64,000 nt of DNA, taken from positions 11,221,351 to 11,285,350 of the forward strand of contig NC_079877.1 in NCBI RefSeq assembly GCF_029227915.1, in the 5' to 3' direction. The notes beneath the pieces are model-generated. The model was not told the origin of the DNA. It saw nothing but the letters and a program-made list of their open reading frames with translations, and did no database searches. The DNA comes from Hydractinia symbiolongicarpus (taxonomy: Eukaryota > Cnidaria > Hydrozoa > Anthoathecata > Hydractiniidae). How positions within the stretch are numbered: the first letter of the stretch is position 1; each line of letters begins with the position of its first letter. Of this stretch, positions 10,067-40,995 are shown piece by piece. The position numbers were made by a program, and so were the translations under genes.

Positions 10067-10324
10067 CTAACTTATAACTTCAATTTTAACTTCTGTCTTG
10101 ATCTTCTGATGTTGTTTTTCATGTCTCTTCAAGTTCGACGACGTTCCAAATGATTTTCCACAAGCAGTACATTGAAAAAGAGCTGAATGCAGACCATGAT
10201 GCGTTTTCCAATAACTTTTATTTGGAAGTTCTTTATCGCATATTCGACAGTGAAACTTTACAATCACGTATGGATTATCCCATTTCTCAAACGGGTTACT
10301 AGAATCCGATTTCATTCTTTTAAC
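10067..10324 (-). CDS. Terminal exon ZF13 (distal)
   Basis: 85 codons after TTATCTGCAG, beginning VKRMKSDSSNPFEKWDNPYV. Finger 1 FHCRICDKELPNKSYWKTHH (x12, IPNK subgroup like ZF2 and ZF3); finger 2 segment GTSSNLKRH; tail KIKTEVKIEVIS (IKTE and VKIE). It lies 2.1 kb beyond ZF12, across a Helitron-invaded gap, and has no clear selector. The remote position may reflect later insertions. Confidence 0.78.
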   Translation of the reverse strand, partial: VKRMKSDSSNPFEKWDNPYVIVKFHCRICDKELPNKSYWKTHHGLHSALFQCTACGKSFGTSSNLKRHEKQHQKIKTEVKIEVIS

Positions 10325-13300
10325 CTGCAGATAAAATTGTTCACTTTTGAGTTCTTTTTTTCGCAAACAGAATTTACATTACAGAATTTTCATGGGAAGT
10401 AATTTTCGCGAATTCATTTTTAGATCTTCTCTCTTCACTTCGCGAAGCAGGTATGAACAAGTTTTTTGTGAAACTTAAAGAAAAACACCTTGTAATGGAA
10501 AGAAGGCAACAGGTAATACGTCAGAAAACTGCGAAAATAAGTGTAAATAAAGGGATGGCAAGTGAGAGGATTATGAAGGAGAATTCATCTATACGAGTTA
10601 TATACGATAGCTTTCCATTTCTATCTAAAGTTATGCGCCAACAATATTGAACTTTTACAAATCTAGTTTTTTTTAGTGTCTCTTTCGCGAGAATTAAGCG
10701 GACCATAACGGTTAGTCGCGGAATGCGCACAAAAAGAGCCCAGGTGACTAAATTATGAGTGGACTAATAATCTATATTATAATGCCCGTATACGTCTGTC
10801 TGTCACGCAAAATGGTAGCTTAGCTGCGACGGGCTAACCCGTGGATTTTTCCACGGGCTAACGACTAGTTTGGGTAAAAATACTTTAAAAAGTCCATTGT
10901 ATTTGCAAACTACTAGCTTAAAGAAATTATTTTTTTTCACTTTCCGCGAAAAATTTTTTCTCCAGTTGGAAAAAGGATTACACTGATTTTATTTCTTCTG
11001 ATTTACTTCGAACTACATATCATATGTAAATGACAAATTCAGCAGTCTTCATTTTATGTCTCCTACATAAAAACCCTTGAAAATTTTATTTTCAAAAAAC
11101 TTCTTTCGAAAATTAATTTCCTTAAGATATGAATAAACCGTTAAAATTATTTTTTTTACTTTGTGTAATTTATTTCTATCTTTTTCAATAATGAAAGTTA
11201 AATCGGTTAATGAGCAAAATTAGCACAGAAAAGGTGAGCCGTTGTTCCTGGAAATACAGAACAAATGAATATTTGTGATTATTTTCATTTTTAAAAAATA
11301 CCCATCTTTTGATTCGAATGTTCTATCGCAATAAAATCCTGATCTTCGTTTCGTCATACCAAAGTAATTTTCGCTAGGTTTTTTTGAGAATAATTTTCGC
11401 GAATGGCTTACTTTATACGTAGCGAAAAAAGTTTCGCGGATCAGAACGAAATATCGCAAATTGGTTAACTAGTTGGAGGACATTATTCGTCACAAGTCGA
11501 TATAATTGAGAAAATTAAACAAAATTTTTGCAACACAACCACTCGCTGTAAATATCAATTCAGTCTTTTCTGATTATTGACTTCTCCATTTCATATTTAT
11601 AATTTTATATTTATTATAATACCCGTATACGTCTGTCTGTCTGTCACCCAAAATGGTAGCTTAGCTGCGCAAGTAGCAAGACGTAGGCAATGCGGTATAA
11701 AAAGGACGGGCGAACCCGTGGATTTTTTACGGGCTAACGACTAGTCCTTTTAAATTTATATATAAAAAAATAAAGTGGTATAAAATAACAAATCATTTAA
11801 ATTTAGTAAAAATAAGAGCTAGAATATACACTATTACATTATTTTGATAACATTTCGCAAAAATCTAATTGATCCAATCTGTTTTTAGTTTATCGTGGGT
11901 TTAATTAGGCGAATGGGAAATATTTTTATAGAATTGGTTGCAGTGGTAACGCATTTAATTGAAACTTTCAGGTTTAATTCATGTAAAGATGAAAACATCG
12001 CGTCAATATTTTAAATTTAGCATGCTTTAACACAATTTACCAATCTCGACGAATTCCCTCCGCATGCAGTGGAACCCCTATGAACGGTCAGAACGCTCGC
12101 ATCCTGACGGAAGAAACGAAATTTAAAAGAAAAGGAATGTTTACATGAACAAAATATAAATTATTAAGAACTAATCGTTACAGGTTGTTTCTCTTTACAA
12201 TGTTAAAAAAATGCTACAATGTTAGTACAATATTTACAAAGTTTTTTCTCTATTTTAAAAATAAAATCTCACAGGAAAAAAAAAACAGCCACGTAAAAAT
12301 ATCACTATAACCTATATGAGGGAGTGTCTGTTAAAAAGGTAAACATAATAAAGAACAAAAAAGAAAATATACAGCCAGTAAAATTGAGAAAGTTTGTTAG
12401 TTAGTTTTAGCAACAGTAGCTAGCAAACAGCGAACAAGACACTATTTCTACTGATACAAGCCTGCCAAGTCACCTATTCCGCAATGACATCAAACTTATA
12501 TCCTTCAGTTTCCACCTTACAACTATGCACAGCTAGAATATGTTTTTTTAGGTTTCCAGCTTGGACAAACGATTTGTGACATAGACTGCACTTGTGAGGC
12601 CTTTCCTCCTCTGATGAATGAGTCAAGAAGTGACGTTTCCAGGCCGACTGGTACTTCGAAGACTGCTCCTTGTTACATATTTTGCAGAGTAAACAAATCT
12701 TTACGTATGGACTGTTGAAGCCCTCTAAAAACTTTAAATCGCCATGAGTTTGTTTGCTATCTGCGCTAATTTTTTTTCGTCGAACCTACACACAATTAAG
12801 AATCTAGACTTTTTCAAACACTTAACAAAATACAAAACAGTCAACCATCTCTCAAAAGAAGTTAAAACTCTCAGTGTCTAAAAGCCATTCAGCCTATTTC
12901 TTGTTTTACTGTGATGTTGTTTTCGTCCACTGCTATGCCATGTTTATTTTTGTAATGATTTCTTAGTTGAAAAGCTTGAATAAAGGATTTGGGACAAACA
13001 GAACACTTGTACGGTTTGTCATCCCCATGAGTAAGAAAGTGTCTTTTCCACGTGGCTTGGTACTTAAAAGATTGTTCTTTATTGCAAATTCTGCAGGCTA
13101 CGATTAGCTTTACATAGGGGTTATTAAAATTCTCCAAATATTTCAAATCTGACGTGCTAACCTGCTTGCAATCCAATGCCACACTCTGCAAGTATTGAAA
13201 AGTAAACAAATGAAATGAAAACAGGTTAAAAGGTAAAAAGCAGTCAACTCTCCCCTTACTCGGTTAGTAGAAAAGCAATGAAAATAACGAAAATGATGAA

Positions 13301-16300
13301 GCAATAGAATCAATGTGTTTTATTCACAACACATAATCCATTTTTGTTCCTTGTTGGGCATGTTTCTTCAAATGTAAGTTAAATGCATTCTTCTGCACAA
13401 ACGCTTTACCACAAGCATCACATTTGAACGGTTTATTTTCATCAGAAGCATGAGTTAAAAAATGGCGTTTCCAGGTGGATTGATATTTCAACGATTGTTC
13501 TTTGTTACACACAGTACACACCAACATGACTTTTACGTAAGGATTTTTGAAGTTCTCGATATATTTCAAATCTGACAAAGCACATGGTTTTGTCAAAACG
13601 CCGTCCAGTGCGTGCAGTTTGGTGTGGCTCTGTGAAAACAAGACATTATTTCTAGTACTACATACATGTTTCGCAGTCAACTCACTCCTTCCTGACAACT
13701 ACTGTGACCCATCTACTTATCTATAAGCGCAATCATTTATATGCGTAACAAACAAACTTCAATTTATACATGCAAGCAAAGGTATTGACAAATATCGTCA
13801 GGTACACAAAAATAACTGACAAACTAGAGTAGGAACAAAAAGTTAAAAGTACACAAATTCCTGCTGTTCTTGTTTTATGTTAGTACAAACATCAGAACTT
13901 CGATCTTGTTTAACGTCTGAATGTTTTGTCGCCACATGCTTTCTCAACGCTGTAATAGTGATAAAAGCCTTGGAACACAACGTACACTTGTGTGGTTTTT
14001 CATCGTTGGACGCATGAGTCAAATAATGCTTCTTCCAATTGCTTGAAAATTTTAGAGACATTTCCTTGTTACAAATTTTACACACAAGAATAATCTTAAC
14101 GTAAGGGTTAGTGAAGTTTTCCACGTAATGCAGACCCGCGTTGCTCGAAGGTGTTTTGGCGTCCGAGCTTGACATTATCCTTCCCTTCGTCTGGAAATGA
14201 GAAAACAACAATAATAAGTCACTAACATATTATATGCACCAAGCAGTTCAACTCTCTCATTTTAAAATTCGTTTTTCACGACAAAATGTTGTTCTTGCTT
14301 TGTCTGACCATAAATCTGCTCCTGCTGTTCATGATATTTTGACACGTGCTTTCGCAGCTGGTCCGCCCTTATGTACGACTTACTGCAATGCTGACATTTA
14401 TGCGGTTTACCCTCAGATGATGCATGTGTCAAGTAATGTTGTCTCCAATTACCGGAGAACTTCAACGACTGCTCTTTATTGCAGATTTTACAGACTATTA
14501 TGATTTTTACATACGGATTGCTAAAGTTTTCCAAGTATTTTAGGCTGGATGCACTTATAGCTTGGTTACTTGACTTTGTGGATGCAATCTGCAAGAAAAA
14601 CACGAAAAAGTCACATGTCTATTAACTAAGCACAAGCAGCAACTCTCCCTCTCATAAGAACGCAAGTGATCGTGACCACTTTCTTATTCTTAAAACAATA
14701 TCTACAATTTATACACGGTGGAAAGTTGTTAAGGATCATTGGTATATCGGATAGGTAGGCTCCATCTTTGGTTGTGGATATTCCTGCTTGATTACGTTAT
14801 GAGGAGGGTACTGCATTTCTTGTTTCAGCTGTTTTTTCTCGTGTTGTTTCAAGAAATGCTTCTTTAACTGTGGTGCAGTGATAAACGCTTTAGTACATTG
14901 AGAACATTTATGTGGTTTTTCTTCATTTGATGCATGACTAAGGTAGTGCGTTTTCCAGTTGTGAGAAAATTTCAGACTCTGCTCCTTATTGCATACTTTA
15001 CAAACTAAAATAATCTTCACGTAAGGGTTGTCAAACTTTTCAATATATTTGAGTGTGGAATTGTTGCTAGGTTTGCCTGCCTTCCCACCAGCAGCATGAA
15101 GTGTCAGCTATAAGATGAAAAGAAAAAAAGGAATTCTGATAACAACCCAGTTTAAAAAACACATCTACAACTAAATTCGAGCAGTCAACTCTCCCTCATG
15201 TTAGCAGAAAATCAGTAAAGCGGATCTTCTGATTTAAACACGTCGATTGTGCCGCCATGTTTTTTCTGCGTGTGGTTCCGCAATGAATTCAAAGAAACAA
15301 ATCCCATATTGCAGTAGGCGCACTTGTGAGGCTTCTCTTCATTCGAAACATGTGTCAAGTAGTGAGGCTTCCAATTACGGGCAAACTTCGATGCTTCTTT
15401 ATTACAGATTTTGCAAACGATAATAACTTTCACGTAAGGATTATCAAAGTTCTCTAAATATTTTAGGCTAGATGAGTTGATTGGCTTTGAACTGGCTTTC
15501 AGCTAAATTTAAAATTACAACACAATGATAAATACTATTTACTAAATAAAGTATGAGAAAAAATAACAGCCGCAAACAAATATGTAGCAAAACTCTGTCT
15601 AAAAAGGTAAGACTAAATAGTGAAAGGTTTTTCCTTCATGTTTGATTTTCACTGTCCACATTCACCATCCAGGAAAGGGTTCACTTTCTTTCAGTTTTAA
15701 ATTCTGTAACATTATGGTATTTTCTTATGTGATCCTTTAACTTATTCGATTGAACAAATGTTTTGTTGCAAAATTTACATTTATGCGGCTTGTCATCTGA
15801 ATGTGTCAGAAAGTGTGTTTTCCAGTTCGTTGATTGTTTTGAAGACTGTTCTTTTCCACACACTTTACATACGAGAAGAATTTTCACATAAGGACTATCA
15901 AAAGCTTCAAGGTATTTTAGACTGAATGTTGTCGAAACTTTCGTTGATGGTGTAGTCCATTTACGTCCAGGCTACAAATGAAAATGGTAGTGTCAACTTA
16001 TAAGTGATAGCGATTACAATTAAATCCCTCATAAGAAGCAAAGTCAGTTTATAAAAAACATTGAAAGTAATATAAAAAATATGGAATCTTGCTTTAACAC
16101 CAAGGTTCAACTTTTACGTTGCTCAAATCATCCCATGGTTCCGAACTACCAGAACCCATCATCCATGGCTCCGTCTTTACATCACTAGATTTAGCTTTAG
16201 AATGTATTTTCATATGATTCTTAAGATTGGTCGAAGTAACAAATGCTTTTTCACACAAGGTGCATTTATGTGGTAAATCTTCCTTTGCTGCATGAGTGAG

Positions 16301-19300
16301 GTAATGCCTTTTCCATGTGTTGGCGTACTTCAAAGATTGCTCCTTATTACAGATTTTACAAACAAGAATTATCTTCACATAGGGGTTGTCGAAATTTTCT
16401 AGATACTTTACGCCAGTTGAATTCAATGTGCTGCTTTTATTCATAGCAGCCTTCTAAAGAAAAGCAGGTGGCGTAAACAAGAGCAACATAGTGAACCCAG
16501 AAAAACAAACAACTCCCTCATAAGATGGCGGTTTAGAAAGAAAAGAGAAAGGTATAGCTGCAACAACAACAACAACAAGAACAACTACCACTTCTCACAA
16601 TCTCCACTTAAGCATTGTTTTATCACCTAGTTCGTGTATTTATTCACTAACTTTGTACCATCGTCATTCAACCAAAAGTCATCAGTGAATATTTTTTGTT
16701 AATAGCCTGGTATGGCACCATACATGCCTGAATGCATGTTAACAACACCCTTGGGGCGGAATTGAAGCAGTTTTTTCATTCAAAAACAAACCACAGTTTG
16801 AAACTAACTAACAAGCCTTAAAAACTAAATATAATTATATCATATATACATACAAAAATAAAGCGAACTAAAAAGTTAGGTTTTCTGATTTAATATTCAT
16901 ATCAGATTCAAAGGGAAAACTTTCATCTTTTAAACTTTTACTATGAACTTTCTGATGTCTCTTTAAATCACACGCTTGCTTAAAAGCCTTTCCACATGTT
17001 GGGCAAGGAAATTTTGGATTGTCTGTGTGAAAAGCATAATGTCTTTTCCAATAACTCGGTTTTGGTAGATCCTTCTGGCAAATACGACATTTAAAATGTA
17101 CAGTGACATAAGGATTGTTCCAATTGCTGAAAATATTTTCACCGCCCTCTTTCTTAGGAGTTCCCTAAAAGGTACACACATCTTACAGCATGTAACTAAA
17201 GCCAACTCTCCCATAAAACGAAATATATTCTTAAAAAATACAATTTAGTCAAATGTATGGTAATATCCTCCTCAGACCTAAACCTTCACAAATAGAATTT
17301 CCAATCTATTCTAAAACGTTTTTGCAAGTTACCAAAACTCACTTTCGGAGAAAACATGTTTTTGCAAAATAAAGAAACTCTGGCTATTTGCAAGTGAAAA
17401 ATTACTGCCAAAAAAGTAAATTTATGGGAACGTAAAAATTCGTGTTTCGCAAAACAAAAAATATATAGAAGTAAATATAAAACAAGACTCCGGGAGAACT
17501 GTATGGGTTTCTCACTGTTTCCATGAGCAATTTTTTAGCTAACTTTGCAACATTCTTAAAGAGAGGGGCACCCGTTATTCTCTTACCAATCAATTCACTG
17601 CAGAATGATATTAGTACATTTGACTTCAGCACTTAAACACAATAAGATACATAAACCTAATGTCTATCTAGAATGAACTTTCTCGTGTCGCTTCAGCACA
17701 TACAACTCACGAAAGCCTTTTCCACATGTTGCACAAGTGAATTTGTGGTCACCAGAATGAGTCAAATAATGTCTTCTCCAATTCTTTTTATTTGGAATTT
17801 CCTTACCACATATTTTACAATGGAATTTACAATTAACGAATTCGTTATCTGTTATTTCAGCCATGGTCGTATTTACTGAGCTCGTTTTATTGCTTGTCTC
17901 AATGTCTCGCTAAACAGTACACATAAAACCGAAAATTACTTTTTTTAATAAACAAATGTGTTCTTTCTCCATTTATAAAACAAAAATTTAATAAAAATCC
18001 GCTTCACTTTTAATGGACAAGTTATCATTGGATGTATTTTCATTTTTAGCATGTTTTTTAACGTGTGCTGTCAGTTGATCCGTGCGCTTATAACTCTTTC
18101 CACACTCCTCACAGACGTACGGTCTTTCATCAGAATGCGTATTAAAATGTCTTTGCCAGTTTGCTTTGGGAGCCTGTTCTTTTCGACATATCTTACACAC
18201 AAATATTATATCAACATACGGACTTTGAAACTGCTCCATAACGGACTTTGCATTCGACTTTAGCAGAGCTTTCTGCAAATGACAAGTTGTCAATTATTGA
18301 TCAATATCACATCCAACTTGACTAATTCAGGATGACTACGAGGATTGTCACCAAGACAGAATTTAAACTCTTCCAAGAAAGTACAAGCAAAACCAAGTTA
18401 AATGTTTAAGACTGGAGACTTAGGAAAACATTCACTGATCTAGCCTTACCTCTTATGAGAGAGTTGACTGCAAAAAAACAAAGGACAATAAAATATAAAA
18501 AAATTGAAGACAACCAAGTGAAATTATTTGCAAGCACAACACTTGATTTTGCTTTTGAAACAAACATCTACGTATCATCTGAAGGTTCATTGGTATTCAC
18601 ACTTGTGAAAATCAAACCATTATGCCACAATTGATATTTTTATAAAAATATTAGTGTTAGCCAAGTTAATTTTTATATAGAAAAGATTTCCTTTTCTGTA
18701 TGAAAATCTAGTTACAAGTTTAGAAAAAATCTCTTAACTTTCTTAGCAAGGAAGTACTTACACGTAGACATTTATTCCAATAGAAACAACTTTCAAACAA
18801 AAAGGAAACAATCGAACTTACATTGTCATCAACTTCTGGTTTCATCCCACCTTTATTACCAAATCCAGCAGATTTACCGCGTTGACTTGGAGACCCAAAG
18901 TTTGATTGCCCAGGAGAGTTAAACTGCTGTGGAGATCCGAAGTTTGGCATTTTATTATTGACATGATTTGGACTTTGTGGAGGCATACCTGGTGATTGAT
19001 GAAGCATACCTTGGTTTGGAGATTGTGCCATAAAGTTCGTATTATTACGAGTAGGAGTTCTTGGAATATTCATCATATTCTAAAAAAAAATACAGACTTA
19101 TATTGGTCAAGTCATAGCAGCATGTGCTTTTGCCGCAAAATAAATTTTGCTTAACTCCAGCAAAATTTGTGTCAATTTAAGCAGTCAAAAAATCCTTAAG
19201 ACAATGTTTTTGCTGTTCAGAAAATACAGAATTCATGCAACTTGTGTAATCAAATCAATTATACATGTTTTCGTTAATTGTTATGTCAAATTTACCATTA

Positions 19301-22300
19301 CATGCTTTTATCTTAGAGCTTAAAATTTGGTCATTACCCATTATTATTATCAATATTGTTGTTTAACTTAATGCTGATGCAACGTTAAACCCTGCATAAG
19401 AAGCACTTGGGGCAGCAGGTCATTTTTCATCTTCTAGAAGGCGCTTAGAAAAGTATTGGAAATGGTTCAAAATATTTTTTCTGTATTATAATAAGTGTCG
19501 CTCGCTCGCTCGCTACGTAAGCTTACCATATTTGTTTACAAGGGCAGACATTTCGCTGACAAACAAATTTTCATTCAGTATTTTTAGGCTGGATGTTTCG
19601 TTACACCAGCCACAAACTAAAAAAAACCATGTGCTGCATGTGATTTCACAGGTGAAACGTGATGTATTACGATAATTGTCTCGTTTGTGTATAATTTTTA
19701 TATAATGTTTAACAACAAATTAATAAATTTATACGATGATTCATTTTTAAACAATTACTTAAAAATCATTTCTCAGAAATGACTTTGGTTTTTTTGTTTG
19801 TTTGTTCAGAAGAAAGAGAGTTCGCTTGAAAGTTACGACTGCGTGGTAAGGCAATTGAGGTTCTCCCTCGTTCTGGCTATCATATATAGCTTGCGTTGGT
19901 GCGCACTTTCCCACAGCTGAGTTGAATAAAACTCTGGCTCTTCCGAGTGTCAGGTCCTTGAGGCATAGTTCCGAATGGGGCTGCTGATTCGATCGTAAAT
20001 CAACAAAACGTCAGGGCTTAAAGTGTTAGCATGTAATCTCAATGCCGGCTTGAACTCACTATTGAACATAGAAAACGAACAAACAAAGAATATATAACAC
20101 TGTAAAAATAGTGTTTTTCAAAAAATCCTACACCAACATAAATTGGCTGCAAGTGTATTTTTCACCAATCTAGACACCTATATTTCAAAGAATTTTCCTT
20201 CCACACACACCATGCACATCCAGAAATTATCATGAATCACTTTATAAGCGTTAATTTAGGATTAAAGAAGAGTTATAATACATACATGTTGTGGATAATT
20301 CAGCATCTCACTAGGTGACATTAAGTTGGGTGCACTTCCTGATGATTGCGTTCGTGCAATTAAGCGTTGCACACCAGCCTTGTTATCTTCAGATAGTCGA
20401 TGTTGATCAAAGTCTGCATCAAGGTTGATAACATTTTGCTCATTACCAGCAGAAAGTTCTAGCCGTGCCTAGAAATAAATTTAAAATCTCCGTAAAACTG
20501 TATTACATTAAACAAATGTAAACTCTTTGTACACAATAGCACAATATGTTTGCCAATTTTTGCATTAGGTACAGAATACCTATGATTTACCTACTAAGAC
20601 ATCAAAATACTGTAAACAGTTAACATCATAAAATCTGTTTTGCTACATTCAAAACATCAAGCTATCCTTTGAATTCACAATTGCACTTTTACCATGATTG
20701 CACATTTTAGTTTAGCTTTAGTTTGAGCTTAAATATCACTTATACCTCTGGTGCAAGCCAAGCTTAAAAGATTCAATATACTTACTCTCTTTCTATGTTG
20801 ATAAGAAGCTTGTTCAGTTGACTTAGCTTTATTCACAAATGACCAAAATTCATCAATTAAATGTTGACAGCTTGCAAGATTTTCAAAAGGCTCCCAAGTT
20901 GGCTCCCATTTGACTTTATACATCTGCTTTCCGTCCTGTAAAGTAATTTAAGGAAACATGAAACACCAATTACCCATGCCAAGAAGACTATATTTCTAAT
21001 GCCAATCTAATACTATAATGTCCATATTGTCTGCAAAATAAAGTAAATAAAAGTAGATAATTTTTGAAAGCCAGATAAATTTTCTATTGAATCGTGTTAT
21101 TTTTGTCATAAAATAATAAACTAGGAAGATTTAAAAATTTGTCGAATTTTTTCAAATTGCAGACTCCTTGCAGCAACCTTTTAGGTTTAAAAACCCGAAA
21201 GGTAAAGGCATTTAAAGCTTATTGCATAAAAAACACTTACTCAAATCTACTGCACTTGAGTACTTAAAAACAGTGTTTCGTTTTGCTTTTTAGGGGTTAG
21301 TTACAAAATTATATTGAAAAGTTGCTTTGTGCTCCTACCTTCACACACAGTTCAAATTAAATAATAAAACTGATTTGAGAAAAATTTGTCTATATACTGT
21401 TTACGTTAAGCTCCATACAATCGTGATTTGGTGATTTTAGAACAAAATCAATTTATATTAAGTAGGTAAAATTAAGGGGTTAGTTACAAAATTATATTGA
21501 AAAGTTGCTTTGTGCTCCTACCTTCACACACAGTTCAAATTAAATAATAAAACTGATTTGAGAAAAATTTGTCTATATACTGTTTACGTTAAGCTCCATA
21601 CAATCGTGATTTGGTGATTTTAGAACAAAATCAATTTATATTAAGTAGGTAAAATTAATGAGAAAAAAAGAAATTACTCAAGAATTGTGTAATTTAAACA
21701 GGCCATTCCTTGAGACAATTGTGATTGCACGCGCACTCGCCCGCACACTTGTAAAAAGATTTACGAGTGCTTTTTATTGCACTCATGAATTTTTTCTTTT
21801 TCTAAACTATTATAGAGCGATGAAAAAGGCTATTACGCTGATTTACATAATATTCATTTCTTTGTGATTGATTTGTTTAAAAAGTATAGAGAACATTAAA
21901 GTTGGCCCCTTTTCTTCATGCTGACACTCTTATACTCGGCTGGTGCATTACACTGAGACTCAAACGAAAAATGGAAAACCATTTGGAACCATGCCACAAG
22001 TCAGTCCAACCATCATCGTCGCAGACGAGAAGGGTGCGCACCCATGCAACTTCAATATAACCAGAACATGGGAGAGGTTAGGTGTCCTGTACCTTAATAT
22101 AGCTTTCGGGCAAATGTTTTAGTGATGTAATATCAAAGAAAAATTATGTTAAATAAAGTTTAAAAAATCTTTTTTAAATGGGAAAGAGAAATCAAAAATG
22201 TCTAGAAATATATTTAATGCCAAAAACATATAGTGAATCTGCCAACATATCATCGCATTCAACGCTGTCTCAACTTTGCACTTGTGGTTAATGCGTTTTA

Positions 22301-24121
22301 CAAAATTCATTTCTATACAGCTTAAATAACATATAACGTTGCGGTAAACAAAAAATAGTTAAGTGTGGATCACACTTGCAAATCTTCACATTGCACTTAT
22401 AAATTTTGCTTACGAGTGCGATTTTTTGCACACCATAGCACTCGTAATTTTTATAGCAGGTGCTTTTTGCAGCTCTGGCATAGTTTTATTCAAGAAATGG
22501 CCTATTTAAACTGTCACTGTTATAAAATCTTAACAACACAATTTTAAAATAAGAGCTCAGTATGTCCAGAAAATTTAATACTTTGCCTCCATATTCATAA
22601 ATCCTTGTACCTTTTAGCCTAAAGTGAGGTGTATGCAGCAAAAATTGTTTAACTTTATCAACACACGAAATTTATTAAAAAGAACAGAAAAAGGTTGTTA
22701 ATAAAAATTTATATTTTTTACTTATATTCTATGAATTATAAACTTTTATGACATGAATATAAAAGATTTGACAGAATTAACAATTTGCGTGTTTCCTCAA
22801 GAATAAACTAAGAGAACAAACATTTTTAGCTCCATATTATTTGCAAGGTTCAAAAATTTTAGGTCAGTTTGTGAAATTTTACGAAATTTTAATATTCCCA
22901 CAATGCATTTTTCCAGCAAAACTGACATCACATACTGTTCTCCCCAAAGAAAAAAAAAACAAGTTCACATCGGCAAAATTTTGCTGAGGTGAATTTTTTC
23001 TTCACAATTTATATAATCATTCAATTGCCTTGAATCTATGTTATATATATAGAAAGTAAAGATAGAAAAGTGATAGAAAGTACTCCTTACATGCAAGAAA
23101 AAATAAAGATCCCAAGTGGTTGCTGGGAATTTTGCTTATTCACCCAAAATAGAATTAAAGTAGTATAAATATGAACACACTGGCTTGAAAAAGAAAAGAT
23201 TGAATTTACGGGCAATTTGCTACCTTGACACTGAAATAAAAGTTCAAGTCACCGTTTTTCTGGACGTGAAATTGTAAATTGCCAAGGCGAATCACAAAAG
23301 AAAATTCATGTCAACATATTTTTGCTGACGTGACATATTTAAATGCTGACGCGAAACAGTATAATGAAGGTTTGAATCGCGACTTTTTGCGTGAAGGTGT
23401 TTTAGCCAATCAGCACTACAGGTTTTTCGCATAAACCAGTTGAATACTAACTTATAGATTTTTAGGAATATATGTCAGATTGAAAATGCATTGAAATTTT
23501 TTTCTCAACTAATATTTCCAAGTTTAGGAGCAGACTTTACGAATTTTAAGGTCAGTGTTTTTTTTGTCGTTTTTTTTTTTCTGTGCATATTTGTTAATCC
23601 AACAATAATATGAACAAATCTAAGTCAAATTACTTTGCCCTCTTCTATAGGTGATAATGATGATTTTTCAGTTTTCACAAGTTTCCCAACATTTCTAATA
23701 TTAACCATTGTGTAAGTTGCAAGAATGCTTTAAAGTCTTTGGCCATGTGACAAATTCCCATTATTTATATTTTGTAGGAATTACCTTCGGTTTCACCATG
23801 ATTAAAAACCGGCATAACTTTCTCAGGACAAAGCTAAATACACACCAATTTACATGTAAGTCAGCCATTAAGTTAAGAAGAGTTTTGCAACTAACTAGCT
23901 AGTCAGCTAGCTATGACATAAATCCTGGCAACGGGGTTGACCCTTAGCCTAATTTTAAAAGATCTCAAAATGTCATGACACACTAGTTTTCTGCTTAGTC
24001 TTTTTCCCCAATATACACCAAGTTAAACTTATTTTACCTGTCCTATTTTGCAATCGACAATTTTTTGGATACCAAAGGAACTTTCAGTATTCGCTGGAGG
24101 AATGTGACTTGATGTCTCCAT
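10067..24121 (-). CDS. Chromodomain protein locus with 13 alternative zinc-finger terminal exons
   Basis: Constant exons (minus strand) are 24121-24038, 20935-20786, 20468-20286 and 19079-18822. They total 225 codons, with every boundary in phase 0. They encode an N-terminal chromodomain (exons 1-2), a polar region (exon 3) and an Asn/Gln/Ser/Pro/Gly-rich linker (exon 4) ending PEVDDN before a GTAAGT donor. Downstream lie 13 exons, each starting after a phase-0 acceptor, coding for two C2H2-type fingers and ending in its own stop. Since each has a stop and lacks a conserved start, they cannot form one poly-finger protein and are best read as alternative 3' exons. Predicted isoforms are about 305-350 residues. 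Known analogues in layout are the insect lola and mod(mdg4) loci, which use a BTB domain as the constant part. Likely nuclear, chromatin-binding; targets unknown. Confidence 0.85.
10771..10868 (+). mobile_element. Mini-Helitron, 98 bp, intact ends
   Basis: Starts TCTATATTATAATGCCCG after an A and ends ACGACTAG before a T. The 3' hairpin CCCGTGGATTTTTCCACGGG (8-bp stem, 4-base loop) sits 7 bases before CTAG. Those are the diagnostic Helitron ends (5' TC, 3' hairpin plus CTRR, insertion between A and T, no target duplication). Too short to code; must be mobilised in trans. Confidence 0.85.
11605..11744 (+). mobile_element. Mini-Helitron, decayed copy
   Basis: TTATTATAATACCCGTATAC opens the conserved part and CTAACGACTAG then T closes it. 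It carries about 35 extra bases (AAGTAGCAAGACGTAGGCAA region), and the hairpin has lost pairing (CCCGTGGATTTTTTACGGG). The exact 5' end is unclear because the TC start is degraded. Confidence 0.75.
12474..12785 (-). CDS. Terminal exon ZF12 (no internal start codon)
   Basis: 103 codons after acceptor TTGTGTGTAG, beginning VRRKKISADSKQTHGDLKFL. Finger 1 CKICNKEQSSK...WKRHFLTH; finger 2 segment VQAGNLKKH; tail SCKVETEGYKFDVIAE (CKVE, a weaker SUMO-type match). It is missed by ATG-based ORF calling but is intact. Selector ACAGTCAACCATCTCTCAAA at 12837-12856. Confidence 0.82.
   Translation of the reverse strand, partial: VRRKKISADSKQTHGDLKFLEGFNSPYVKICLLCKICNKEQSSKYQSAWKRHFLTHSSEEERPHKCSLCHKSFVQAGNLKKHILAVHSCKVETEGYKFDVIAE
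12889..13185 (-). CDS. Terminal exon ZF11
   Basis: 98 codons after TACTTGCAG, beginning SVALDCKQVSTSDLKYLENF. Finger 1 CRICNKEQSFK...WKRHFLTH; finger 2 segment IQAFQLRNH; tail NNITVKQEIG (VKQE next to the C-terminus). Strong selector GCAGTCAACTCTCCCCTTAC at 13240-13259. Confidence 0.82.
   Translation of the reverse strand, partial: SVALDCKQVSTSDLKYLENFNNPYVKLIVACRICNKEQSFKYQATWKRHFLTHGDDKPYKCSVCPKSFIQAFQLRNHYKNKHGIAVDENNITVKQEIG
13324..13629 (-). CDS. Terminal exon ZF10
   Basis: 101 codons after TTTTCACAG, beginning SHTKLHALDGVLTKPCALSD. Finger 1 CTVCNKEQ...WKRHFLTH; finger 2 segment VQKNAFNLH, with Phe at the usual Leu position. The tail is short (QQGTKMDYVL) and lacks a good SUMO-type motif. 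The stop codon runs into AATAAA (TGAATAAAAC), the clearest poly(A) signal in the array. Selector GCAGTCAACTCACTCCTTCC at 13673-13692. Confidence 0.82.
   Translation of the reverse strand, partial: SHTKLHALDGVLTKPCALSDLKYIENFKNPYVKVMLVCTVCNKEQSLKYQSTWKRHFLTHASDENKPFKCDACGKAFVQKNAFNLHLKKHAQQGTKMDYVL
13843..14190 (-). CDS. Terminal exon ZF9
   Basis: 115 codons after CATTTCCAG, beginning TKGRIMSSSDAKTPSSNAG. Finger 1 CKICNKEMSLK...WKKHYLTH; finger 2 segment ITITALRKH; tail CTNIKQEQQEFVYF (IKQE). The selector GCAGTTCAACTCTCTCATTT at 14243-14262 reaches the last base of the stop codon of ZF8, so the gap to the previous exon is fully used. Confidence 0.82.
   Translation of the reverse strand, partial: TKGRIMSSSDAKTPSSNAGLHYVENFTNPYVKIILVCKICNKEMSLKFSSNWKKHYLTHASNDEKPHKCTLCSKAFITITALRKHVATKHSDVKQDRSSDVCTNIKQEQQEFVYF
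14262..14588 (-). CDS. Terminal exon ZF8
   Basis: 108 codons after TTCTTGCAG, beginning IASTKSSNQAISASSLKY. Finger 1 CKICNKEQ...WRQHYLTH; finger 2 segment IRADQLRKH; tail GQTKQEQHFVVKNEF (TKQE and VKNE). Strong selector GCAGCAACTCTCCCTCTCAT (continuing AAGAA) at 14636-14660. Confidence 0.82.
   Translation of the reverse strand: MASTKSSNQAISASSLKYLENFSNPYVKIIIVCKICNKEQSLKFSGNWRQHYLTHASSEGKPHKCQHCSKSYIRADQLRKHVSKYHEQQEQIYGQTKQEQHFVVKNEF
14736..15107 (-). CDS. Terminal exon ZF7
   Basis: 123 codons, the longest of the set, after CTTATAG. LTLHAAGGKAGKPSNNSTLK leads into finger 1 (CKVCNKEQ...WKTHYLSH) and finger 2 segment ITAPQLKKH. The Pro/Tyr/Gln-rich tail carries LKQE and IKQE and ends PKMEPTYPIYQ. 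Strong selector GCAGTCAACTCTCCCTCATG at 15181-15200. Confidence 0.82.
   Translation of the reverse strand: MTLHAAGGKAGKPSNNSTLKYIEKFDNPYVKIILVCKVCNKEQSLKFSHNWKTHYLSHASNEEKPHKCSQCTKAFITAPQLKKHFLKQHEKKQLKQEMQYPPHNVIKQEYPQPKMEPTYPIYQ
15212..15502 (-). CDS. Terminal exon ZF6
   Basis: 96 codons after AAATTTAG, beginning LKASSKPINSSSLKYLENF. Finger 1 CKICNKEASK...WKPHYLTH has a one-residue deletion (x13) relative to its neighbours. Finger 2 segment VSLNSLRNH; tail DVFKSEDPLY (FKSE). The selector is degenerate: GCAAAACTCTGTCTAAAAAG at 15587-15606. Confidence 0.78.
   Translation of the reverse strand: MKASSKPINSSSLKYLENFDNPYVKVIIVCKICNKEASKFARNWKPHYLTHVSNEEKPHKCAYCNMGFVSLNSLRNHTQKKHGGTIDVFKSEDPLY
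15681..15971 (-). CDS. Terminal exon ZF5
   Basis: 96 codons after CATTTGTAG, beginning PGRKWTTPSTKVSTTFSLKY. Finger 1 CKVCGKEQ...WKTHFLTH; finger 2 segment VQSNKLKDH; tail TEFKTERK. Two partial selectors lie upstream: GTCAACTTATAAG at 15992-16004 and ATCCCTCATAAGAAGC at 16024-16039. Together they look like the two halves of the consensus. Confidence 0.8.
   Translation of the reverse strand, partial: PGRKWTTPSTKVSTTFSLKYLEAFDSPYVKILLVCKVCGKEQSSKQSTNWKTHFLTHSDDKPHKCKFCNKTFVQSNKLKDHIRKYHNVTEFKTERK
16094..16453 (-). CDS. Terminal exon ZF4
   Basis: 119 codons after TTCTTTAG. KAAMNKSSTLNSTGVKYLEN leads into finger 1 (CKICNKEQ...WKRHYLTH, x14) and finger 2 with segment VTSTNLKNH. The long tail carries VKTEPW and VKVEPW, a repeated SUMO-type motif followed by Trp, and ends WC. 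Selector CAACTCCCTCATAAGA at 16510-16525. Confidence 0.82.
   Translation of the reverse strand, partial: KAAMNKSSTLNSTGVKYLENFDNPYVKIILVCKICNKEQSLKYANTWKRHYLTHAAKEDLPHKCTLCEKAFVTSTNLKNHMKIHSKAKSSDVKTEPWMMGSGSSEPWDDLSNVKVEPWC
16868..17164 (-). CDS. Terminal exon ZF3 (no internal start codon)
   Basis: 98 codons after acceptor TACCTTTTAG, beginning GTPKKEGGENIFSNWNNPY. Finger 1: FKCRICQKDLPKPSYWKRHY (x12). Finger 2 recognition segment KQACDLKRH. Tail ends DMNIKSENLTF (IKSE). An overlapping minus-strand frame at 16963-17214 starting with ATG is a shadow in another frame. A selector-like CCAACTCTCCCATAAAA lies at 17202-17218, 38 bases upstream of the acceptor. Confidence 0.8.
   Translation of the reverse strand, partial: GTPKKEGGENIFSNWNNPYVTVHFKCRICQKDLPKPSYWKRHYAFHTDNPKFPCPTCGKAFKQACDLKRHQKVHSKSLKDESFPFESDMNIKSENLTF
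17664..17909 (-). CDS. Terminal exon ZF2
   Basis: 81 codons after acceptor TACTGTTTAG. The N-terminal linker RDIETSNKTSSVNTTMAEI precedes FHCKICGKEIPNKKNWRRHY (x12 spacing). The second finger has recognition segment RELYVLKRH and the protein stops two residues after the last His (HSR). It belongs to the IPNK subgroup and is the only exon with no tail and no SUMO-type motif. The upstream gap is only 78 bases and has a weak TTCTTTCTCCATTTATAA. Confidence 0.78.
   Translation of the reverse strand, partial: RDIETSNKTSSVNTTMAEITDNEFVNCKFHCKICGKEIPNKKNWRRHYLTHSGDHKFTCATCGKGFRELYVLKRHEKVHSR
17988..18272 (-). CDS. Terminal exon ZF1
   Basis: 94 codons plus stop after acceptor CATTTGCAG. Linker KALLKSNAKSVMEQF, then YVDIIFVCKICRKEQ...WQRHFNTH (C-x2-C-x12-H-x3-H), then a canonical finger with recognition segment KRTDQLTAH. 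The tail ends NLSIKSEADFY (IKSE, SUMO-type). Nearest to the constant exons. No strong selector is visible upstream; only a weak AAACTCTTCCAAGAAAG near 18366. Confidence 0.8.
   Translation of the reverse strand, partial: KALLKSNAKSVMEQFQSPYVDIIFVCKICRKEQAPKANWQRHFNTHSDERPYVCEECGKSYKRTDQLTAHVKKHAKNENTSNDNLSIKSEADFY
18451..18471 (-). promoter_or_regulatory. Candidate RNA docking site for terminal-exon choice
   Basis: Pre-mRNA (minus strand) reads GCAGTCAACTCTCTCATAAG here, in the intron between the last constant exon (end 18822) and the first terminal exon (start 18272). The reverse complement of this string recurs, with small changes, in the RNA upstream of most terminal exons. The site could therefore base-pair with any one of them. 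The arrangement equals the docking/selector system of Dscam exon 6. Function is inferred; complementarity is seen directly. Confidence 0.7.
18822..19079 (-). CDS. Constant exon 4: low-complexity linker before the splice choice
   Basis: 86 codons rich in Asn, Gln, Ser, Pro, Gly and Met (for example MLHQSPGMPPQSPNHVNN and NFGSPQQFNSPGQSNFGSP). The repeated SPN/SPG/GSP motifs suggest a disordered linker with possible Pro-directed phosphorylation sites. It ends GGMKPEVDDN, then GTAAGT at 18821-18816. This donor must pair with one of 13 acceptors downstream. Confidence 0.8.
19080..20285 (-). other. Intron between constant exons 3 and 4
   Basis: Non-coding on both strands as far as I can see. Contains a short CGCT repeat at about 19498-19513. 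No clear transposon ends. Confidence 0.5.
20286..20468 (-). CDS. Constant exon 3: polar linker
   Basis: 61 codons (ARLELSAGNEQNV ... EMLNYPQH) between acceptor TTTCTAG and donor GTATGT, phase 0 at both ends. No domain recognised; it is acidic then Ser-rich, with a short predicted helix around DNKAGVQRLIART. It contains no internal ATG at its start, so ORF callers miss it. Confidence 0.75.
20786..20935 (-). CDS. Constant exon 2: chromodomain core
   Basis: 50 codons. DGKQMYKVKWEPTWEPFENL followed by ASCQHLIDEFW covers chromodomain strands 2-3 and the C-terminal helix; TWEPxxNL is the family hallmark. Compared with HP1/Polycomb types, the KGY-loop between KW and TWEP is cut to two residues (EP). 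This removes the third aromatic-cage position; the cage Trp (in VKW) is kept and the first aromatic is Phe. The exon ends QHRKR before GTAAGT. Flanking acceptor CAG/GAC. Confidence 0.85.
20936..24037 (-). other. First intron of the chromodomain locus
   Basis: About 3.1 kb without a supported exon. It contains the exact 183-bp tandem duplication at 21293-21658. The remainder is AT-rich; repeated short phrases around TTACGAGTGC near 21757 and 22403 hint at old repeat DNA. Confidence 0.5.
21293..21658. repeat. Exact 183-bp tandem duplication
   Basis: Unit 21293-21475 (GGGGTTAGTTACAAAATTAT to GTAGGTAAAATTAA) is followed directly by 21476-21658. I find no difference between the units. Either a very recent duplication or an assembly artefact. 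It lies inside the first intron of the chromodomain locus. Confidence 0.9.
24038..24121 (-). CDS. Constant exon 1: start and first chromodomain strand
   Basis: 28 codons from ATG at 24121 to a GTAAAAT donor, beginning METSSHIPP and ending GIQKIVDCKIGQ. The FGIQKIVD segment matches the first beta-strand of chromodomains (aromatic-x-V/I-E/Q-K-I). The ATG was chosen because it opens the only frame that continues into the chromodomain exon in phase 0. The upstream leader is not defined. Confidence 0.75.
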
Positions 24122-35669: not shown

Positions 35670-38600
35670 TTACGAGCAATAATATACTTCGATTCTCATG
35701 CATATCAGATTTTTCCACTCTTGAGGCTTGATGCGAATATAACGTGCAATAAAGGGGTAGTCGAATTCGATGCTTTTAACTGATTTGGTATCTGTGTTTC
35801 CAGCAAAAACCTATGGTTACAACAATTTCAGTTGTGTTACTTGTTTATGTTATCATCCAAGCTTTTAAAGAAATTTGTATATTACCTTCGCTTTACTGAA
35901 GTCTAGATCATCCACGTAAGGAACCCAAGAAATATTATCCTCGCTGTATTCAATGTTAAACTTCGTAACGTACTTAGCATAAGGTGAGTCGCGACCTATA
36001 ATTGTACATTAATTAAATCTTTGTAAAATTAAACAATTTTTCTACTGATTAAGAAGACTAAAATGGTTCTTGCACAGATTGCTACACCGTTAAATTTTAT
36101 GGGGGAATATTGGCGCGGTAGCATGTCAAGAAAAACACTCGTTAAAGAAGATTATTACCATTTTTTACCTAGGCTATTTTTTTTCTGATCCTAATGGTAC
36201 TGTTATGAAAGAGGGTCCTGCGAAGGGGGTTCTAGTGCATTTAAAGCTCCCGTTTGAGCTATGAAAGGCGTGCAAGCACAACAATCGCTCAGCAAGACAA
36301 CCGCCTAAGATATTAATCCTATTTTCGTGTTGAACGTTAATAGGACGGATCCATTTATACTTTTATGGTCTCTGGGATGACTCAGCCGGAGTCACAAAGA
36401 GTCGGTTATTAAGCTAACAGAGTTATGTGGAATGCGATTATATATCACAGATAACTTTGAATTAACATAGGAAGTTGATATTTGCGAATTTCAATCTGCC
36501 AATTTCGATTTTTCTCATTCGTGATAGAATTCGATTCCAAATAAAGAATGTTTCAATATCAATTTCGAACAAGCGTCTCAATCAGTAAGTTTAGAATTTA
36601 TAAAATAGATGGAACGCTGGAGTTTAGTTTTTTATAAGAAAATTTGCACTAATAACAAATATTCTTATCCTAGCAGCAATAATCACACCAGCGCCCAGCA
36701 GGTGCTCTTATCTGAGTCTCACTGAAATTAAAACTTTTGACTTTTAAAAGTACAAGAACTACAAGAAACAAGCTGATTTAGTTCTGTTTCTACTTAACAG
36801 AAGGTGGAGTTATCCAGGATCTGGTTTAACGGGACTATACTTTATCTCCAAAATCTGTACTTTCATTTGTTCGTCAATATCCAGACTGGTGTAATTTTGT
36901 TTTGGTGCACGTTCTATGCTTTAGTATCATTTACATGGATTAAATAAGAAGTACTGTGCATCCCTTCAGTGGCTTACATATACCGTATGGATTTTTGTTT
37001 ACCTTGTACATCTAATTTTTTTACAGTCTTCATGATTCCCAAATCAACCTGCAGAAACTGATTTTTATCTTGTATGCCTGCACACCACGCGCCAACACCT
37101 TTACGACTTGACTTTAAATTTAAGCGTGCTTGGTGTGGACCGTGCCATCTATGAAAAGAGCATAACAACATCATAACAATGTATTCACCTTACTCTAAGC
37201 TTTTGATAATAAACAAACGCAATTACTTACTTGTTCACACTGGAAGAAGCAGTCATTGCTCCATCAGGAACGCGTTTATTTTCGATACCAGCTGCAACAG
37301 GAGTTTCACATTCTAAATAGTTAAGAATGAACAAACGTGAATATTATTCTTAAAAATGCCACTTGAATGTCAAGATAAATGTTGGTGATATTTTTTGGTG
37401 GTCTAAAAACAATATTTATCTTCGCAAAAACGGTCAATATTTAGCGTATTTTTGCAAATCTACTATTTCTTTTTTCGCAATTGGAATTTATTTAAGGACT
37501 GTTTATTAAAGGAAGGTAGGCTTTCATTTAACTTGCTCATGCCTAAAAGGCTGACCATTAACTTAATCATCAACGAAACCAAGAAAGTGTGTGTAGAACT
37601 CACTTTTTGGAACAGGTGGTGGACCAATATCTGTTGGAACTGGTGGTGTGTTTGGCTTTTCTGTTGTTCCGGGAAGAGGTGGTGTGTTTGGTGCTTTTGT
37701 TGTTCCGGGTAGAGGCGGTGTATTTGGTGCTTCTGTTGTACCGGGCAGAGGCGGGGTGTTTGGTGCGTTTGTTGTTGTTCCAGGAAGAGGTGGTGTTACA
37801 AGTTCTTGTGTGGTTGGCAACGGTGGTGTCATCACAGTTGTCGACGGTGATGGTGGAGTAACAGTACGACATTTAACAACTTTTTTCTTTTCCGAGCATA
37901 CTTTACAACTTTTTTTACAAGATACTTTCATATACCTTGGATTTCTGTTGCATTCTCCACGGGATGCCCAAAAGGGACAATATGATGATTGATCTCGACA
38001 AGTTCCTAATAAAACAAGAAATTAATACATATGGCAAGTATGTAGTATTTCAATTTGCAAAAGACATATAGTGGATGTGTTCTCACCGGCTGCTTGTGCG
38101 CCTCCATTGCAAGATTTGCAACAATTGGATTTCATATAAGCCCAGCTTGATCTGCAATAACCTTGCCTTGCCCAAGACGTGCAATAAATGTTGCGATCGT
38201 AGCAGTTTTGATTCACATTGCTGACTGTTTCCCATGTTGTAACGCACTCCGTTGGAAGAGTTTTTTTTGTTGTACCTGATAAAATTACGCGAGATTACTT
38301 AAAAAATAACGGATACAATTTTTTAGCAACAACAATAACAACAATCAATAACATCAATAATAAGATGTATTACCCTTTTTCGTTGGCGTTGTTTTTCCTC
38401 TAGTACTTCCATCGCAATTGCTTCTCATGTTTCTTTGGTTATCTGCAACGGATGGGAAGAATGAAAAATAAGTCTCAAGGAAGTACTGCAAAGGAGAAGA
38501 GAGTTCAAATACAAAGGTTGATTACTGAGAATGAAAATAAAGATAAACAGTACCAATTTTTAAAATTCATGCTGCATGGAGCTTAAAGTTAGTATGGCTT

Positions 38601-40995
38601 AATAAAAATTAATTGAAAGAAGTGATAATTCTACACGGACTATTTTTGATTCTCTACCCCTCATGTTTTCTCTAACCACATATTACTGGCCTCACAATAC
38701 TGAATGTGCACCTACTTGTACATGTGTAATAGGTATTCATGCATGGATACGCCTCTTTGATGATTCTGTATAATGTAGGATCGTACTCTCTTAGCTCGGC
38801 TCTTGTGTTCACGTGATTGTGAATACCATTTGGTGGCCTGGCATCTGGATGGTTGTTAAAAAAGCTTTGCATCCCTTCTGCAAAATATTCCCTAGAATCT
38901 GTCATTGAGTAGGTATTTCTGTACAATCCTCTTCGCTTGGCATTGTTGTATGCTCTCACGATACGACTGTACATACCAGGTATACCGTTACCTCGTAAGG
39001 CTACTTCCTAAAGTAAAAAAAAAACAAATGGAAATTCTACTTCACTCTTCTTCTGTTTTGATCAAACGATACTACTTCATTACCGTTATTATCAGTTATG
39101 CAACTAAAGGTATTTACTGAGAACGTTATCTAACCTTAAAATAAAGTTTTTAGATGGAGATAAATTAAAAAAAATAAAAACTTTGTCTGCTTAAAATGAC
39201 TGCAAACAGCCTGTCTGTAAGCCAATTCAAAAACAGAGGGTTTTGGAATCAAAAATGCCGTTATAATGGCACTTTAATCATAGTCGAATTAAATTTCATT
39301 TCCTCATGTCAACAGAGGGGTAAGGGTACACGAAAAACTGACGCGGACATTCTGTACGATGGGCAATTCCTTATATTACTTACAGCGACATTGTGTGCAG
39401 CCTCGTGAAAAAAAATGTCGTCTCCATAATATCGATCTTGTCTCAAGCATAATAAATTCTCTTCTCCACCAGTTGATATAGGTCTTCCAAGAACTCCGCC
39501 CAAACCACGTGCACGTTGATTGTACCAGCTTGGGAGATGGCTAAACTCTGGAATGGTTGTTGTGTCTGAAATTACGAGAACAGTTTATTTTACTAATTTT
39601 GAGATGGATTTGTTGACAAATAAATGGTAAAAAAACAACAAGATTAAGAAAAACTAAAAATTACAACTCACGTTCTCTCAGGCCAATTACTCCAAATCGT
39701 CCAAAGTTTCTGTATAGACTTTGTCTCACGTCTCGTCTGTCGGCAAATAGGAAACGGACGATATGACACGCCCTTGTCAAAGCTTTATTAGACACTTGAT
39801 TAGAACTAATAATTGGAATGTTATACGCATGTGTATACTTTGTGTAAAATCTATGTCTAAAGGAAAAAAATAAGGTTAAGATGTCATTAATTTTATTTCA
39901 TATTCAACAGCTCTTGTAAAAAACACGAATGAAAAAACACAACATAAAAACAACTACAAAAGACCAGATGTTAAGAAATAAAAAAACCTAATTTCATATT
40001 TTTAAAAAAAAGTAAAAAGTGGTAAAGAAGCCAAAAATGTTAGACCACCTGATGAGTTTATAGCAATTGCAAAACATCTCCCACCTCTCCCGACAAACTT
40101 TTTGATAAAAATAAACACAGAGCATTTTCACATTGAAGCATTAATGCAAAGAACACTGAGCTTGGTCCCTGAAAGATGCTGCCATTAAAGATTTTATTTT
40201 GTTAAAGACAATGTATGTATATATCACCATAAAAAATTGATTTCTGGTTATGTCGATTTGACTTTGACATGTCCTCAGTAACTATCATATGAGTTTAAAG
40301 ATGATTAATGATATATACACCTACCTCGTGATAAAAGTCAGATGTCTTGGTACTGAAGTGATTTTTTCACAATCATGATCATCTGATACACTGCCAGATC
40401 GTAACGAACCAAATGGACTGTTTAAGATTTGATTAACTGATAACCGCACATTGGCAGGTACATTCTTGAATGCAGCTAATAAAAGAATATTGTCAAGTGT
40501 TTACATTTGTCTGCGTTAATAAAGACGGGCAACAAACACATGGGTGCAAATATGGAGGCCGGTGAAACCGTTAATCTTTTTTAAGGCCTAACGGCTGGTA
40601 ACTTTTTTAAACATTTGATACATATTTTATTAATTTTTTCTATATAAAACTACAAATTTAAATTCTGCTGTGTTTACTTATAAAAAGGAGGACAGATAAA
40701 CATATATTACACAAACTTCATTATTGGGCTTTCCGACCACCATAATAATAGAGACAAAAAATAAATCTTTACCTAAGTTGAATAAATCTGCTCTCGGATT
40801 TTCTGCTGAAACCGACCCTAAAAAGAATAGACACGAGTGTTAGTTCGTGTGTACAATGGTAAATTACATTCTAGCACAGTGGACGAGAAATGGTTTCAAA
40901 CATGTAACATAATTGAACCAAGTTTTTATCACTTTTTAAATACCTTTCTCAAAAATCTGCGCTAGTACAAGCAGCAAGATAATTTCTTGCAACAT
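35670..40995 (-). CDS. Secreted zinc metallopeptidase with two ShK domains and an F5/8-type-C domain
   Basis: Thirteen coding exons: 40995-40944, 40817-40773, 40475-40325, 39856-39672, 39565-39384, 39007-38716, 38442-38374, 38275-38087, 38005-37604, 37312-37231, 37148-37003, 35995-35886, 35810-35670. All phases agree, giving about 681 residues. Signal peptide MLQEIILLLVLAQIF. The peptidase domain (about 35-300) has HEAAH at residues 198-202 and a candidate third ligand in SREYFAEG (Glu 245), a gluzincin-type layout resembling the lethal-factor-like (ATLF) peptidase fold; family assignment is tentative. ShK1 starts NCYDRNIYC and ShK2 CRDQSSYC, six Cys each. A Pro/Thr linker with repeats of NTPPLPGTT follows. 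The C-terminal discoidin domain runs from CETPVAAGIENKRVPDGAM to RIEVYYC. Likely an extracellular matrix- or glycan-directed protease; substrate unknown. Confidence 0.85.
37630..37800 (-). repeat. In-frame Pro/Thr repeat in the metallopeptidase linker
   Basis: Five imperfect units of 33-39 bases encode TPPLPGTT followed by two to four variable residues (TNAPN, EAPN, KAPN, EKPN). Mucin-like and probably O-glycosylated; a length-variable region by its nature. Confidence 0.85.

Follow-up and report, generated by a model that had tools for sequence, protein, structure and literature searches.

A docking site and a series of selector sequences that could pair with it were identified in a gene on the minus strand of a 64,000-nucleotide (nt) stretch of Hydractinia symbiolongicarpus DNA (contig NC_079877.1, positions 11,221,351 to 11,285,350). 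The whole stretch is called the window below, and positions are counted from its first letter. The gene has four constant exons (E1-E4) followed by an array of 13 C2H2 zinc-finger exons (T1-T13), and one intronic site is complementary to selectors located before 10 of the 13. We consider it likely that competing RNA pairing in cis brings one of the acceptors to the constant donor.

It was proposed that the chromodomain protein encoded by this gene ends in one of the 13 alternative zinc-finger exons, with E4 as the donor exon. The docking site, about 350 nt downstream of E4, would pair in cis with a single selector of the pre-mRNA at any one time, looping out the intervening exons and placing the chosen acceptor near the E4 donor. 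Approximately 1.7-6 kb would be bridged, and the distal endings would be less disadvantaged in competition with those closest to E4. The closest, T1 and T2, have no clear selector; they would need no bridge and may be the default. We infer that such pairing occurs in cells and affects the choice of acceptor, and different zinc fingers may direct the same chromodomain to different DNA targets. The analysis itself demonstrated the complementarity, established where it lies, and showed that it exceeds chance and has persisted despite saturated neutral sites.

If E4 is the sole donor, each transcript receives one ending whatever the RNA structure, which makes a chooser the best reading of the pairing: its main effect would be on which ending is used, not on exclusivity. 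Of the competing pairing put forward in a first-pass annotation of the window, the layout of docking site and selectors stood and chance was excluded statistically. With terminal variants and E4 as the only clear donor, however, the endings probably do not owe their mutual exclusivity to competition, which would instead affect the acceptor that is reached.

Probable docking site and selectors

The docking sequence was found exactly at 18471-18451 of the minus strand. Its pairing was assayed with RNAduplex, the 21-nt site being set against each of the 13 gaps and against 1000 dinucleotide shuffles per gap. Nine gaps (T3, T4, T5 and T7-T12) gave energies of -20.8 to -28.6 kcal/mol, compared with shuffle means of -8.2 to -13.4; the p value was 0.001, the floor of the test, in eight cases and 0.002 for T10. 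Energies of -7.0 to -15.9 (p 0.17-0.50) were recorded with the same site for T1, T2, T6 and T13. A partner of T6 was located directly 3' of the 21-nt site by searching the stretch between E4 and T1 (-25.1 versus -20.8 for the best of 20 random regions), and the pairing of T6 with 18452-18430 reached -26.6 (p = 0.0005, none of 2000 control 35-mers being as good). The earlier claim of a site complementary to a motif before seven exons strongly, and before three more in weaker or split form, was thus borne out for 10 of the 13 exons, nine at p ≤ 0.002 against shuffled gaps and T6 through the continuation of the docking site. Beyond that claim, the docking site was found to be longer (about 18472-18430) and to coincide with a microexon-like element having its own 3' and 5' splice-site sequences, and T13 lies outside the interval previously annotated (12837..18471). 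When a 56-nt docking sequence was used, p ≤ 0.002 was obtained for T5, T6, T8, T11 and T12 and 0.015-0.044 for T3, T4, T7, T9 and T10, the exons without a clear selector giving 0.018 (T1, through adjacent sequence), 0.82 (T2) and 0.34 (T13).

Further, 15,994 minus-strand segments, taken at 4-nt steps along the 64 kb, were paired with the last 130 nt of 11 gaps (T2-T12). The 21-nt site ranked 1 of 15,994, with a mean energy of -23.3 against -9.2 for all segments (standard deviation 1.65); energies of -18 or better were reached by nine of the 11 gaps. In the list of the 25 top segments, those off the docking site and one E4 site attained this level with at most five gaps. The site lies between E4 and T1, the one intron where the model needs a docking site. 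The control sequences paired more weakly, at -7.0 to -16.4 for the reversed site and -6.9 to -19.6 for its antisense (best with T8). An ungapped search allowing up to six substitutions returned the site itself, one unrelated place and the selectors of T3 and T4 only; most other selectors are shorter or pair with a bulge.

The E4 site is a second dock-like stretch, CACAGCAGTTTAACTCTCCTG, inside the coding sequence (18907-18931, minus strand). It showed the best mean selector pairing of any segment outside the docking site (-17.9, six of the 11 gaps at -18 or better) and could be either a competitor of the docking site or a coding-sequence coincidence. A separate docking site for T1, T2 and T13 was also sought in 19079-18300 and rejected, since none of the candidates beat 20 random regions (best energies versus the null minimum: -19.2/-20.0 for T1, -13.8/-19.5 for T2 and -17.3/-21.7 for T13).

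Nine selectors are 34-72 nt away from the acceptor that follows, slightly upstream of the expected branch point. Their distance was 49 ± 10 nt to the following acceptor and 131 ± 148 nt to the preceding stop; the T6 selector, whose core is about 100 nt before its acceptor, was left out of this spacing test. Equally tight spacing arose in 0 of 20,000 uniform placements, or in 1 of 20,000 with T5 in its 21-nt-dock position. Without the long gaps of T3 and T4, the counts were 27 of 20,000 (T5 at 41) and 293 of 20,000 (T5 at 19).

The spacing bears on another explanation, in which a small RNA or a protein recognises the repeated motif, the docking site serves as a microRNA source or decoy, and no long-range pairing is involved. 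The motif is placed in the would-be 3' untranslated region of the preceding ending (that of T9 directly past the T8 stop), the site is about 21 nt long, and cnidarian microRNAs often pair almost fully. Nevertheless, we regard this explanation as very improbable, for the motif position tracks the downstream acceptor and not the upstream stop, and a protein motif would leave the complementarity to one best intron site unexplained. A microRNA precursor at the docking site was considered and rejected, as the site folds as a small hairpin within a branched structure and has no precursor arm; a search of the window with Rfam gave 0 matches at gathering scores.

It is hardly credible that a meaningless motif was merely carried along by recent tandem copying. 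The exons are tandem copies, but T4-T12 share 41-56% amino-acid identity, and their fourfold sites are saturated (105 of 342, or 31%, identical, versus 28% for random); the copies are therefore old, and unselected gap sequence should be randomised. The selectors were alike beyond what picking by pairing produces: the best-pairing 22-mers, taken from each gap by rule, agreed with each other at 0.61, whereas shuffled gaps gave 0.49 ± 0.02 (0 of 200 as high). Of the transitions away from perfect complementarity in these 22-mers, 16 kept a G-U pair and 6 did not; the share of 0.73 is a modest excess over the 0.56 of shuffled gaps, of which 3 in 200 were as high. Copying also leaves the complementarity to the docking site unexplained, and such an origin appears already contradicted by the pairing, the scan, the saturation and the rule-based controls. 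Since the selectors persist at a set distance though neutral sites are saturated, it is likely that selection acts on them.

Several results weigh against a choice of ending by pairing or weaken parts of its support. Selectors were present for 10 of the 13 variants, not for every one; T1, T2 and T13 had no clear selector, and T13, 2.1 kb beyond T12, appears unaccounted for by the model. When the test against the 3' half of the docking site was confined to the 35 nt adjoining each first-half selector, pairing was clear for T6 (0.0005) and nominal for T12 (0.0135), eight of the 10 giving p 0.05-0.94; the combined p was 0.0006, or 0.024 without T6, and the role of the 3' half is considered secure for T6 and suggestive for the others. 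The hand-picked selectors were 67% identical, versus 46% and 53% in the flanks and 44% in random pieces, figures that are biased because the selectors were chosen for matching the docking site. For the same reason the binomial p of the hand alignment, in which 12 transitions keep the pair and 2 break it, is overstated (0.0004, or 0.04 counting each position and type once), and 16 transversions were present in that alignment. With local structure counted, net pairing was favourable in eight of nine cases, although only just so for T5 and T10 (-0.4); the exception was T8, at +1.5. Donor-like sites of 6/8, the level of three of the four constant donors, follow seven of the 13 stops, which leaves room for further splicing of some endings. 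The other six stops had no such site behind them, and 7/8, the E4 level, was reached after no stop. Poly(A) signals of nine variants, searched to the next acceptor or within 500 nt of the stop, were absent after the stops of T6, T8, T11 and T12. We provisionally read the 13 exons as terminal.

The chromodomain gene and its endings

Exons E1-E4 joined in phase 0 encode 225 residues including the chromodomain. The joined sequence matched PF00385 Chromo at 3.1e-09 (37.1 bits versus a cut-off of 25.1), the domain match that marks an HP1-type chromodomain; it was the only Pfam match at E ≤ 0.01, and no BTB domain was found in the constant 225 amino acids. The closest solved relatives, by sequence matches of E1-E3 in PDB, were MPP8 (1.2e-04) and CDYL2 (2.9e-04). 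By this match the constant part would be MPP8/CDYL/HP1-like, a likeness claimed with no orthology asserted, and the array gene differs from those proteins by its added zinc-finger endings. Judged by eye, the loop before the TWEP motif is presumably shorter than in HP1. The GC content of the window is 33.9%. A 183-base unit is present in two tandem copies with a 100% match at 21292-21658, in the E1-E2 intron.

The 13 C2H2 exons follow E4 on the minus strand; every one of them has a phase-0 acceptor, contains finger motifs and is closed by a stop of its own. The zf-C2H2 family of Pfam was confirmed on the three exons scanned (T1, T4 and T13), and two subgroups were distinguished by eye, T1, T2, T3 and T13 versus T4-T12. 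The T8 protein, the only one tried, had no relatives in viral and prokaryote collections. In eight of the 13 terminal exons (10067-18272, minus strand) the C-terminus contains, by eye, I/V-K-x-E (IKSE, VKVE, IKQE, VKNE, VKQE, VKIE), which we take to resemble the SUMO-attachment consensus.

The order of the endings speaks to a further explanation, namely that they come from separate transcripts and that the selector bound by the docking site belongs to a different RNA molecule, in an RNA-guided variant of what mod(mdg4) and lola do. Base pairing works in trans too, and the constant intron contains a sequence resembling a 5' splice site; a 2015 report by Gao et al. is said, by its title, to concern an intronic U1-binding sequence in Drosophila trans-splicing. 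The gene logic is also that of mod(mdg4), whose alternative 3' exons have independent promoters and are joined in trans, according to the available part of the source (PMC12692577). However, the 13 endings share one strand and stand close together and in order, so cis splicing suffices, and joining in trans is considered improbable.

Table 1. Positions of the exons, the docking site, the microexon-like element and the selectors
Feature	Position	Strand	Properties and basis
Constant exon E1	24038..24121	-	start codon, METSSHIPPANTESSFGIQKIVDCKIGQ; sequence reading, donor gtaaaa
Constant exon E2	20786..20935	-	chromodomain; Pfam Chromo 1.6e-06 on the E2 open reading frame (ORF) alone
Constant exon E3	20286..20468	-	in-frame, ag/gt borders
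Constant exon E4	18822..19079	-	Q/N/S/P-rich, phase-0 donor gtaagt (7/8); clear donor feeding the array
Docking site, extended	18430..18472	-	5' part 18471-18451: nine selectors; 3' part 18452-18430: T6, probably T12
Candidate microexon, 18 nt	18450..18467	-	inside docking site; tttgtttttttgcag before, gtaagg after; in-frame STLS-stop
Terminal exon T1	17988..18272	-	no selector for the 21-nt site; sequence
Terminal exon T2	17664..17909	-	no selector; sequence
Selector before T3	17200..17218	-	-26.9 kcal/mol, p = 0.001
Terminal exon T3	16868..17164	-	sequence
Selector before T4	16505..16525	-	-26.7, p = 0.001
Terminal exon T4	16094..16453	-	sequence
Selector before T5	16014..16048	-	extends over 3' part of docking site; -20.8, p = 0.001 (21-nt, split pairing); -36.9, p = 0.002 (56-nt)
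Terminal exon T5	15681..15971	-	sequence
Selector before T6	15603..15625	-	pairs with 3' part of docking site including gtaagg; -26.6, p = 0.0005
Terminal exon T6	15212..15502	-	sequence
Selector before T7	15181..15195	-	-28.6, p = 0.001
Terminal exon T7	14736..15107	-	sequence
Selector before T8	14636..14659	-	-26.4, p = 0.001
Terminal exon T8	14262..14588	-	sequence
Selector before T9	14243..14260	-	begins just past T8 stop codon; -27.9, p = 0.001
Terminal exon T9	13843..14190	-	sequence
Selector before T10	13673..13687	-	-25.5, p = 0.002
Terminal exon T10	13324..13629	-	sequence
Selector before T11	13240..13254	-	-28.5, p = 0.001
Terminal exon T11	12889..13185	-	sequence
Selector before T12	12837..12876	-	pairs along nearly the whole extended docking site; -25.8, p = 0.001 (21-nt); -43.8, p = 0.001 (56-nt)
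Terminal exon T12	12474..12785	-	sequence
Terminal exon T13	10067..10324	-	2.1 kb beyond T12, no selector; sequence

A microexon-like element within the docking site

The element coinciding with the docking site consists of a polypyrimidine tract (13 of 15 pyrimidines) with a gcag 3' splice site, 18 nt, and a 5' splice site of 7/8. An acceptor-donor pair within 60 nt at 13/15 and 7/8 was unique in both strands of the window, and at a looser cut-off (11 and 7) four pairs were recorded, this element included. The selectors of T7-T11 end in CTGC, complementary to the GCAG of its acceptor, and that of T6 covers GAGGTAAGG. In a comparison with 200 shuffles, the docking region had the better fold 198 times, and a 14-bp stem of 18554-18541 with 18398-18385 (minus strand, -18.5) brackets the docking site and would loop the element out.

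We suggest that pairing with the docking site also masks this candidate decoy exon, which would end the protein before the fingers. The docking site might even be first of all a decoy microexon. When unpaired, E4 would be joined to the 18-nt exon, resulting in a finger-less protein that ends in DDNSTLS; a pairing selector would hide the 3' splice site (together with the 5' splice site in the case of T6, and perhaps of T5 and T12), thus releasing the finger ending. This primary decoy role is compatible with bridging, and it agrees with the strength of both splice sites and their uniqueness at the strict cut-offs, with the selectors pairing to them, with the preserved frame that leads to STLS-stop, and with the stem and fold of the region. 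It is put forward tentatively, as the less probable alternative, since 18 nt is very short and the element was spotted post hoc. Two pairs as strong were present in 80 kb of other loci (one strand), hence such pairs arise without a docking site, and the intron of a paralogue described below contains no such splice-site pair.

Recursive splicing of the microexon was rejected, because its junction with E4 rebuilds no GT. Another small acceptor-donor-like pair (tactaatatcattctgcag, 11 nt, gtaaga) was noticed by eye at 17586-17611 (minus strand), in the long gap before T3; it is weaker than the element in the docking site.

Known systems, origin and neighbouring features

The available parts of two sources describe the layout of Dscam exon 6 as one docking site after the constant exon and selectors before the variants (PMC8042237, PMC11802352). 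The likeness to this layout, asserted in the first-pass annotation, was confirmed: a single docking element is located between the constant exon and the first variant, upstream of the array, with one selector before 10 of the 13 variants, an arrangement that allows competition as in Dscam1 exon 6 of insects. The selectors of Dscam1 exon 6 may use different parts of the docking site, as those of the array gene would. The two differ in that the variants of the array are terminal and have their own stops, so that an extra repressor for exclusivity may be unneeded, whereas for internal Dscam exons a further mechanism must stop the joining of downstream variants, as stated in the part of PMC6071210 consulted. 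Additionally, the docking site of the array coincides with a microexon-like element, three of the 13 variants have no clear selector, the product is a chromatin/zinc-finger protein and not an adhesion molecule, and the host is a cnidarian.

The genes lola and mod(mdg4) of Drosophila have a common N-terminal part and many alternative zinc-finger-type 3' exons. The array gene resembles them in combining a constant chromatin-related N-terminus with one of many alternative terminal exons, and differs in having a chromodomain instead of BTB and in the arrangement of its endings, which form a single compact array on one strand. It also has predicted docking-selector pairing, of which the available part of PMC12692577 makes no mention for mod(mdg4).

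A paralogue on the same contig, apparently with a single ending, has its chromodomain exon at 22068338 and its finger exon at 22069856. No copy of the docking site or selectors of the array was found in it, the best pairing with the array docking site being -9.9 within the 200 nt before the finger exon; a docking site of the paralogue's own was not searched for. It therefore seems that the docking system goes with the array. Further chromodomain and C2H2 exons of the gene family were observed on the same contig (22020001-22090000 and 22420001-22430000); several finger matches lie at 22.42 Mb, and the one gene structure examined was that of the paralogue at 22068338.

As for origin, a copying model in which one stem-loop arm is duplicated along with the exon, outlined in the accessible text of PMC6071210, would fit the selectors. 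The same text names insect Dscam, 14-3-3 zeta, Mhc and MRP1 as docking-selector cases (PMC6071210), and other long-range or competing pairings are described, in sources seen in part, for a few mammalian genes such as ATE1. In the literature searched, no paper combining a docking site, a selector, mutually exclusive splicing and a cnidarian was found; a review of isoform diversity in single cells (PMC4984447) apparently mentions docking site, selector sequence, RNA secondary structure and terminal exon together. A compact and statistically strong cnidarian case on terminal exons would let one ask whether tandem exon copying repeatedly yields competing RNA structures, and would provide an accessible animal for testing whether RNA structure chooses transcription-factor endings stochastically or by cell type. 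The most far-reaching proposal is that a hydrozoan transcription-factor gene acquired a docking-selector system independently of arthropods, its docking site being a stop-bearing decoy microexon; selector pairing would then silence the decoy and at the same time select one of the ten zinc-finger endings. We regard this combination as doubtful; if true, a single chromatin reader would be redirected by RNA structure to any of many DNA targets or left in a finger-less default form.

Other features were noticed in the window. Reverse-transcriptase-like retroelement fragments were recognised by eye at 61119-62648 (minus strand), where the one ORF scanned had no Pfam match. At 37563-39897 (minus strand), one ORF encodes a ShK domain together with proline-rich repeats; the adjoining ORFs are presumably metalloprotease-like, judged by eye, the one scanned having no Pfam match. 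A 227-amino-acid open frame at 52677-53360 (minus strand) contains a bHLH domain (Pfam HLH 6.6e-09).

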